Assembly: GCA_012523975.1 (NCBI GenBank)
Contig: JAAYSF010000044.1
Location: forward strand, 1-38,808
Length of the DNA stretch: 38,808 bases
Direction of reading: 5' to 3'
From: Veillonellaceae bacterium
Lineage (GTDB): Bacteria; Bacillota; Negativicutes; JAAYSF01
Part shown: piece after piece, positions 19,310 through 38,025 of the stretch
Layout of the letters: each line of letters opens with the position of its first letter
Numbering within the stretch: position 1 is the first letter of the stretch
The notes under the pieces: generated by a model
Seen by the model: only the letters and a program-made list of their open reading frames with translations
What the model was told of the DNA's origin: nothing
Database searches by the model: none
Program-made: the position numbers and the translations under genes

Positions 19310-19409
19310 CTTAATGAGAAAAATAGTGCTTTTGCCTTAATAAATTGCGTAAAAGCGATTTCAACTTAAAAAATGGCTGAATTTAACGAAAAATAAATCG
19401 TCACAATCA

Positions 19410-19431
19410 GACTGTATAGTCGGACTATATT
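19410..19431 (+). promoter_or_regulatory. Overlapping palindromes before lpxA
   Basis: GACTGTATAGTC (19410-19421) is an inverted repeat of the form GACT-N4-AGTC. It overlaps the perfect palindrome ATAGTCGGACTAT (19416-19428) and a -10-like TATATT at 19426-19431. The first form recurs before ompM. It is a candidate operator 52-73 bp upstream of the lpxA start codon. No good -35 box is seen. Confidence 0.5.
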
Positions 19432-19482
19432 GTAAGTGAAACAACATGGGCAATGTATTGTACTTGTTTAGAAGGAGTTGAT

Positions 19483-36229: not shown

Positions 36230-36311
36230 TCTATTATTTACATAATTTTTTTTGATAACAAGAAGGAATCCCGCAACATTCACCGAATACATATTAACGT
36301 TAAAAATGGAT

Positions 36312-36610
36312 TTATGTTAATCCATAATTTTTTTGATAGATTACGACTGACTAGTCGCCCCAAAAACAAGTGTGAAGAACTTTAAAAAATTTAAAGTCAA
36401 AAAGAAGGAGTTTGTCGTAAAATGTCGAAATAAGTATTATAAGATTATGTTAATCATATATTTTTTTAAAGAAACCTGACTGGATAGTCGACCTAGACGA
36501 ATTGCAATATAATCCGCGATATTAGACGCAACACATTCAGTAGACTTTAAAATTATGTAAATGATGATTAACTAATCTATACTTTTTGACACTACATGAC
36601 CGATTAGTCA
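36312..36610 (+). promoter_or_regulatory. Repeated regulatory modules before ompM
   Basis: Three palindromes of the form GAC(T/C)-N4-AGTC occur at 36345-36356, 36478-36489 and 36598-36609. The first two are each preceded, at exactly the same offset of 33 bases, by TTATGTTAAT (36312 and 36445). A related TTATGTAAAT lies at 36553. The modules are 120-133 bp apart in very AT-rich DNA with runs of T. A -10-like TATAAT at 36508-36513 lies just after the second palindrome. This looks like a duplicated promoter or operator array for the highly expressed porin gene. Confidence 0.6.
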
Positions 36611-36699
36611 AATCACCGACACGTTAAAAGACTTACCAATAATTACATCACACATCACAGCAGGATACAAGGAAGTAGTGTCGAATTATGTAAACAAGA

Positions 36700-36860
36700 A
36701 ACCTGCAAAAAGCGGCAGGTTGGCATAAAGCAGAAACTGAGCTGGACTGGGTATGATACATGAGGAAACGTGGATACTCATCGAAATCATTCCCCCTCTG
36801 GTGAAGCGAAGCCGAAATGCTTTGGTGGCAACACCCGCAAAACAATTATTATAAATTCAA
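36700..36860 (+). other. Possible structured 5' leader of ompM
   Basis: Several hairpins can be drawn. AACCTGC at 36700 pairs with GCAGGTT at 36715. A two-part stem pairs ATGAT (36753) with ATCAT (36786) around ATGAG (36760) and CTCAT (36777). I do not recognise a known riboswitch or RNA family. Long stable leaders are common on abundant OM protein mRNAs, so this may govern stability. Confidence 0.4.
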
Positions 36861-36873
36861 GGGGGATTTCCAA

Positions 36874-38025
36874 GTGAAAAAAAGACTTCTTAAAGCAGCT
36901 GTAGCAACTGCATTAACAGTAGCATTTGCAGTACCTGCATTTGCTAACCCATTCTCTGATGTTCCTGCAAAACACTGGGCATATGATTCCGTAAACAAAC
37001 TTGCTCAAGCTGGTATCGTTGACGGTTACAATGATGGCACTTTCAAAGGCGACAAAACAATGACCCGTTACGAAATGGCTCAAATCGTAGCTAAAGCTAT
37101 GAACAAAGACCTGAATCCTGAACAAAAAGCAACTGTTGACCAACTTGCTCAAGAATTCAGCACTGAACTTAACAACCTCGGCGTAAAAGTTGAAGGTCTG
37201 CAAAAACAAGTTGACGACATGGTTAAAATCTCCGGCGACGCTCGTGTACGTTACGCTGGTACCGAAGATGCTGCTGGCAGCAAACACGACAACACTGATT
37301 TCCGTGCCCGTGTATCCTTCGACGGCAAAATCAGCGACAACCTGAAATTCAATGCTCGTCTCAACAGCGGTAACATCAACTATGATGGCAATACCAACGG
37401 CAGCTTTAAATTAGATACTGCTAACGTAACTGTAGACGCTCTTGGTCTTACTAACACCATTGGTCGTCAAGACGTTCTGCTTGGTGGCGGCTACCTGTAT
37501 GACACTCAAATGAATGCCATTGCCGCTAAAACTGGCAACCTGAAACTTGTAGCCGGTAATACTGTAGATGGCGAAGACGGCAAGCATCGTGTATATGCAG
37601 CTGAATATGGCTTCAACGCTCTGGGTGCTGACTTTGGTGCCAGCTACTACAAAGACGACTCCAATGATCAAGAAATCTATGGTTTGACTAGTGCTTTCAA
37701 ACTTGCTGACAACGTAACAGCTACTGCTTCATACTTCGACAACGACGATGCTAACGCTGATGCAACTGCATTCGGTGTGAAGTTTAACAAAGCTGGTCTG
37801 TCTGTAACTCATAGAGATGTAGAAGCTGCTGCTTTCACTGGTTTCGGCAGCCTGAGCAACGATATGAATGCTAGCGACTTAAACGAAGGTTTCAAAGGTA
37901 TGGAATATCAATTAGACAAAAACCTTGACAAGAACACTGTTCTGACTGTTAAATACCAAGACTTCGAAACTAAAGCCGGCGCTGACCTGAAACGCACTAG
38001 CGCAGCTGTAAACGTTAAATTCTAA
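36874..38025 (+). CDS. ompM: OmpM-type outer-membrane porin with SLH domain
   Basis: The 383-residue protein has a signal peptide cleaved after AFA (residue 24). One SLH domain follows (about 25-75: NPFSDVPAKHWAYDSVNKLA, then GYNDGTFKGDKTMTRYEMAQ). A coiled coil comes next (about 82-118), then a beta-barrel (about 119-383) ending in NVKF. In Selenomonas and Veillonella such proteins bind polyamine-decorated peptidoglycan through the SLH domain and so tether the OM to the wall. The start is GTG 36874, after CAAGGGGGATTTCCAA; a longer reading from 36817 is not supported. Codon use is strongly biased and unlike its neighbours (nearly all AAA lysine, many AAC, CTG and GCT), as in very highly expressed genes. 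A clean terminator follows. Confidence 0.94.
   Translation: MKKRLLKAAVATALTVAFAVPAFANPFSDVPAKHWAYDSVNKLAQAGIVDGYNDGTFKGDKTMTRYEMAQIVAKAMNKDLNPEQKATVDQLAQEFSTELNNLGVKVEGLQKQVDDMVKISGDARVRYAGTEDAAGSKHDNTDFRARVSFDGKISDNLKFNARLNSGNINYDGNTNGSFKLDTANVTVDALGLTNTIGRQDVLLGGGYLYDTQMNAIAAKTGNLKLVAGNTVDGEDGKHRVYAAEYGFNALGADFGASYYKDDSNDQEIYGLTSAFKLADNVTATASYFDNDDANADATAFGVKFNKAGLSVTHRDVEAAAFTGFGSLSNDMNASDLNEGFKGMEYQLDKNLDKNTVLTVKYQDFETKAGADLKRTSAAVNVKF

Follow-up and report, generated by a model that had tools for sequence, protein, structure and literature searches.

What governs transcription of the porin gene ompM, and why three copies of one palindrome should stand in front of it, is the question raised by this locus. 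The gene (36874..38025, + strand; Pfam SLH 54 bits) encodes an SLH-domain outer-membrane porin/tether and lies in the window, that is, the whole stretch of 38,808 nucleotides that was analysed from a genome of 2.47 Mb, where it follows an LPS transport and outer-membrane cluster and a DUF3084 gene. These genes, together with the named relatives that share the cassette described below, point to the class Negativicutes. OmpM serves diderm Firmicutes as the main outer-membrane tether and is among their most abundant envelope proteins (PMC5491611, PMC10665443).

Palindromes and SigH-like elements in front of ompM

Direct reading of the sequence confirmed what the earlier note had described, namely three palindromes, their coordinates, core-to-core steps of 133 and 120 bp, and two identical offsets of 33 bp. 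The operator-like palindromes O1 (CGACTGACTAGTCG; 36344..36357, core start 36345), O2 (TGACTGGATAGTCG; 36477..36490, core start 36478) and O3 (TGACCGATTAGTCA; 36597..36610, core start 36598), to which no strand was assigned, are located approximately 265-530 bp 5' of the GTG start codon at 36874, with a conserved leader in between. The sequence TTATGTTAAT is present in exactly two copies (36312 and 36445), each 33 bp 5' of the GAC of a palindrome. The cassette extends beyond this first description: modules 1 and 2 each go on from TTATGTTAAT with an A/T stretch and seven consecutive T. The left part of cassette 1 (TTATGTTAAT, then CATAATTTTTTTG; 36312..36335, + strand) is kept in relatives, and that of cassette 2 (TTATGTTAAT, then CATATATTTTTTT; 36445..36467, + strand) was identified by reading the sequence. 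Module 3 is looser than the other two because its left part, the TTATGTAAAT of a degenerate cassette (36553..36562, + strand), has an offset of 45.

In the 826-bp gap, GACY-N4-RGTC occurs three times against 0.018 expected, a number reached in none of 5000 shuffles, and the whole window contains seven copies of GACYNNNNRGTC where 1.1 would be expected (none of 100 shuffles reached 7). Genome-wide pattern searches revealed no enrichment of the bare 8-base core (61 strand-wise matches versus 154 for the reversed control) or of the 14-mer TGACYRNNYRGTCA in the own genome (4 versus 3). The signal of the palindromes lies in their position and conservation, and their raw count is weak as evidence. 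A further palindrome, AGACTGTATAGTCG, which deviates from the extended consensus at its outer bases, was seen at 19410-19421 of the window, in a short intergenic gap (19310-19452) of the LPS cluster.

The 826-bp gap also contains three matches to AGGA-N17-GAAW on the + strand, compared to 0.063 expected (0 of 2000 shuffles reached 3). P1 (AGGA-N17-GAAT; 36264..36288, + strand) and P2 (AGGA-N17-GAAA; 36406..36430, + strand) are pattern matches, and the proximal P3 (AGGA-N17-GAAT; 36662..36686, + strand) lies within a GCAGGA-N17-GAAT that is conserved in relatives, where this element stands 5' of the leader and frequently also shares sequence with the terminator arm of the preceding gene. The order of elements is P1-O1-P2-O2-O3-P3-leader-ompM. 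The N17 spacing of the SigH-like elements is that of sigma-H promoters, as in spoVG of B. subtilis, and sigH was found in 60 of 60 genomes (own genome: TIGR02859, 374 bits, cut-off 294.8). The earlier note had offered several regulator sites or tandem promoters as alternatives; in silico, a SigH-like promoter precedes each of O1 and O2 and another follows O3, and since palindromes and promoters alternate in this way both proposals seem to apply. In some loci (e.g., L013, L016 and L019) the -35 part of the SigH-like GCAGGA-N17-GAAT is at the same time the 3' arm (GCAGGATTCTTTT) of the preceding gene's terminator. A sigma-A promoter under the ompM cassette was rejected, because inspection of relatives by eye showed no -35 to match TTATGTWAA/CATAAT.

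A DNA search of 60 relatives returned matches in 24 genomes, and the stretch just 3' of O3 was conserved in many of them. The position of O3 is the counterpart of the single operator of most relatives, approximately 36 bp 5' of the conserved leader block. A conserved box, CCAATAATTACA (36636..36647, + strand; aligned by eye), follows the last palindrome by about 36 bp in most relatives. A palindrome was present 5' of the leader in 16 of the 21 genomes whose leader region was examined, nearly always inside a composite cassette consisting of TTATGTWAA, an A/T stretch, a T-run and TGACYRNNYRGTCA. Conservation in related genomes, which the earlier note had named as a check, was thereby established, the composite cassette being kept 5' of ompM in at least six Negativicutes families (f1, f3, f6, f10, f18 and f26). 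The distance from TTATGT to GAC was 33-35 bp in nearly all copies across relatives, and that from the palindrome to the next SigH-like element was mostly 58-62 bp. Among 84,980 species genomes, a strict cassette pattern matched 13 contigs, all of them in front of an ompM leader; these belong to Pelosinus, Lucifera and other Sporomusaceae/Selenomonadales-type taxa, with one labelled only Bacillota. The cassette is present in the genome of the cultured, non-pathogenic P. fermentans JBW45. The O1 module aligned with that of G002 at 81%. Tandem cassettes recur in other lineages, with two copies in G007, G043, G032 and G019 and three in CTSoil_075, and the triplication is therefore one case of a repeated pattern.

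A candidate TetR-family regulator and its predicted targets

At 10 or more of 30 ortholog loci (families f1, f3, f6, f18 and f26), a TetR-family gene ends 13-26 bp 5' of the same palindrome, which often sits between tetR and an EmrA/HlyD gene. With the site so close to a TetR-family gene that is conserved across the class, the earlier guess of a TetR-type dimer, made from symmetry, is well supported. Orthologs were detected in 33 of 60 genomes at E<1e-60, one per genome and mostly 57-73% identical to the query. The gene of the own genome (G000:C75:18514-19110) encodes a protein with a TetR_N helix-turn-helix (PF00440, 60 bits, cut-off 24) and a TetR_C_24 domain (34.5 bits), and no palindrome adjoins it at one mismatch or fewer. 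In the orthologs, 31 of 65 positions of the helix-turn-helix region are invariant versus 12 of 134 elsewhere. This TetR is encoded in every one of the 16 genomes that carry the palindrome at ompM, and the sole genome with a leader and no TetR (G041) also lacks the palindrome. Four genomes, three of family f23 and G037, have TetR and the ompM leader and no ompM palindrome; palindrome counts per genome did not differ significantly between TetR-positive and TetR-negative genomes (Mann-Whitney P=0.066). A literature search found no report of an OmpM regulator or of a Negativicutes TetR.

Sites matching TGACYRNNYRGTCA were fetched from the own genome and its relatives, and the neighbouring genes were read. 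In two batches, 54 of 80 sites were intergenic, compared to 13.6% for random positions drawn from the stretches concerned (P ~3e-28, although the species are phylogenetically related and such P-values overstate independence). Chance frequency, which according to the earlier note would speak against the motif, thus holds for the bare core and not for intergenic placement. The genes that recurred behind the sites in different families encode TolC (downstream of mlaD), three kinds of membrane-fusion protein, SIMPL proteins, a lipoprotein with GCGGGS..RI.GL, and two small proteins, one RHER-rich and exported and the other an outer-membrane protein (OMP). In the own genome, the tolC, lipoprotein, OMP and SIMPL genes carry sites, some with one or two mismatches. 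The small RHER-rich protein gene was repeatedly seen with an upstream palindrome (L118, L125, L129, L146, L186, L198, L222, L238 and L239), which is often trailed by a TTTTGTCAYATTT element.

The tolC promoters read TTGACA-17/18-TATAAT, or one change from it, which is the sigma-A consensus, and in 11 of 12 loci the palindrome falls in the interval from +3 to +27 (+5 to +18 in the own genome). The macA sites, most lipoprotein sites and the own OMP site cover the -35, mostly from -35 to -21. Both are standard repressor positions, and the sites therefore suit a repressor. Unlike the tolC site, the ompM palindrome overlaps no recognisable core promoter. What was observed in silico comprises the sites with their conservation and spacing, the set of shared targets, the link to the tetR gene and the promoter-overlapping positions at tolC and other genes. 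The site next to tetR and the coherent envelope and efflux targets in many families support the regulator with several sites postulated in the earlier note, but not its dedication to ompM.

Taken together, the palindromes (consensus TGACYRNNYRGTCA) are quite probably operators for a TetR-family repressor that is present in one copy per genome in much of the Negativicutes and controls an envelope and efflux regulon including ompM. With one TetR-type repressor on porin and efflux genes, the two would appear to share one switch in much of the class. Bound to these sites, a TetR dimer would repress ompM together with tolC (as part of the mlaD-tolC unit), several genes for membrane-fusion proteins, and those for envelope lipoproteins and small OMPs. 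In front of ompM, every operator is predicted to act as a roadblock to transcription from the SigH-like promoter about 55 bp upstream, whereas P3, 60 bp downstream of the last operator, would stay free and provide a baseline. A ligand, perhaps an amphiphile exported by the pumps, may release the repressor, and on release the three tandem operators and promoters would add inducible capacity.

Other readings of the palindromes were weighed against this one. That they arose by chance in an AT-rich gap agrees with a bare core at or below chance genome-wide, yet is hardly credible given that no shuffle produced three in the gap and that they are conserved across families with fixed spacing. The triplication could also be neutral debris of tandem ompM duplication, with only the proximal palindrome of consequence. 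Such an origin fits the tandem ompM paralogs and the partial or full leader copies that stand, without a gene, between tandem cassettes in L017, L018 and L087; it is nevertheless unlikely, as palindrome, 33-bp offset and SigH-like element are all retained at O1 and O2 even though the leader RNA is gone there, and module 1 is conserved in G002.

Two further readings concern the protein and its mode of action. In one, a TetR protein binds the sites but at ompM activates transcription or organises the DNA, the site centre being approximately 90-100 bp upstream of the start of the proximal promoter. In its favour are the rigid distance between the palindrome and the proximal SigH-like -35, which is 58-62 bp in most copies, the absence of a core promoter beneath the ompM palindrome and the upstream sites at several small RHER-protein genes; repressor geometry at most other targets, and a palindrome inside the ompM leader of G014, which fits a block and not activation, make it a doubtful reading, which we rate on a par with the debris of duplication. 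In the other, another dimeric envelope-stress regulator, e.g., a LiaR/VraR- or DosR-like response regulator of the NarL family, is responsible, and adjacency to tetR reflects membership of the neighbouring exporter in its regulon. NarL-type regulators bind GAC...GTC-like inverted repeats, a resemblance that serves as a lead only, and the gene beside tetR is often an EmrA/HlyD exporter, a plausible target itself. In G002, however, the site follows tetR though the next gene is a converging lipoprotein gene (L165), and positions at +3 to +27 or over the -35 suit a repressor and not an activating response regulator, so that this reading is improbable, more so than either activation by TetR or duplication debris. 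Repression by a TetR-family protein remains the preferred explanation.

The leader RNA of ompM

P3 and the start codon are separated by a conserved ompM leader RNA of about 190 nt (36687..36873, + strand). It contains the hairpins H1 (CCTGC/GCAGG; 36702..36719), H2 (GAGGAAACGTGGATACTC; 36762..36779), which carries the motif GAGGAAACRYGGNNACTC, and H3 (GGTG-GCAA-CACC; 36824..36835), as well as CCCCCT (36792..36797), which a permutation test predicts to be the partner of the Shine-Dalgarno (SD) sequence AGGGGGA (36860..36866), all on the + strand. The stem-loop motif GAGGAAACRYGGNNACTC was found in 134 of 200 Negativicutes genomes versus a handful of matches for the reversed control. In the fetched loci (n=42), 35 copies were directly 5' of an SLH porin gene and three stood before a porin-like protein without SLH, the remainder being at contig ends or unclear. 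A covariance model of the leader matched in 71 of 200 genomes, and an Rfam search of the leader returned no family above the gathering threshold.

Folding of a single leader sequence gave no useful signal (z -0.65), and the leader structure is supported by covariation instead. Two hairpins showed both-sided changes, such as CG to UA in H1, in 13 cells versus 3.6 in shuffles, and 96.5% of cells were paired. The helix between SD and anti-SD had -13.8 kcal/mol within sequences versus -12.7 between sequences (0 of 2000 permutations), with compensatory cases in L085 and L089. This conserved pairing with compensatory changes suggests translational control of ompM. As the variants ACACGGTCA and ACACGGCCA show, the GGA of H2 is not conserved, and a CsrA site there was rejected on this ground; a T-box was rejected because the GGTGGCAACACC loop varies. 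The leader RNA, whole or in part, was also seen tandemly duplicated 5' of ompM with no gene between the copies (L087, 430-1500; L017; L018).

The chances are about even that two control layers meet at ompM in much of the Negativicutes, a global TetR repressor and a class-wide porin leader RNA. In the first layer, the porin/tether would be coupled to TolC-Mla and efflux genes through tandem units of SigH promoter and operator, and in the second, the conserved GAGGAAACRYGGNNACUC stem-loop and a helix hiding the SD would act post-transcriptionally. The leader RNA may be the more novel element of the two, compared to the palindromes. A candidate regulator with its operators and predicted regulon makes the tuning of permeability and outer-membrane attachment versus efflux testable, and the adjoining leader RNA is a second testable control point, common to the porin genes of the class.

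Comparison with known systems

The arrangement resembles the TetR efflux repressors of the AcrR, MtrR and TtgR type, in which a small TetR regulator lies beside or before an exporter gene and a palindromic operator covers the core promoter of tolC and adaptor genes. It differs from them in that a single ortholog seems to control a large set of envelope genes, the major porin/tether gene among them, in much of a class, and in that the porin gene has tandem promoter-operator units. The best NCBIfam match of the candidate is Bacillus FadR (YsiA), which is of the TetR family and shares its helix-turn-helix (63-67 bits; equivalog NF053878, 66.8 and 63.2 bits, far below the 200-bit cut-off). The operator of Bacillus FadR is of the TGA...TCA type and resembles the operators described here, whereas the predicted targets are envelope and efflux genes and not those of fatty-acid degradation.

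As in the MarA/SoxS/Rob and OmpR control of enterobacteria, a porin and TolC-type efflux would stand under a common regulator; in contrast to enterobacteria, the regulator family is unrelated, and porin and efflux appear to be repressed together instead of being controlled in opposite directions. The SigH-like elements have the GCAGGA-N17-GAAT spacing of Firmicutes sigma-H (Spo0H) promoters, with sigH present, and differ from the known ones in that their predicted use, if any, would be for an outer-membrane porin. Repression by a TetR protein is the known kind to which this system would belong; new would be its reach over an envelope regulon across the class and over a porin gene with tandem units.
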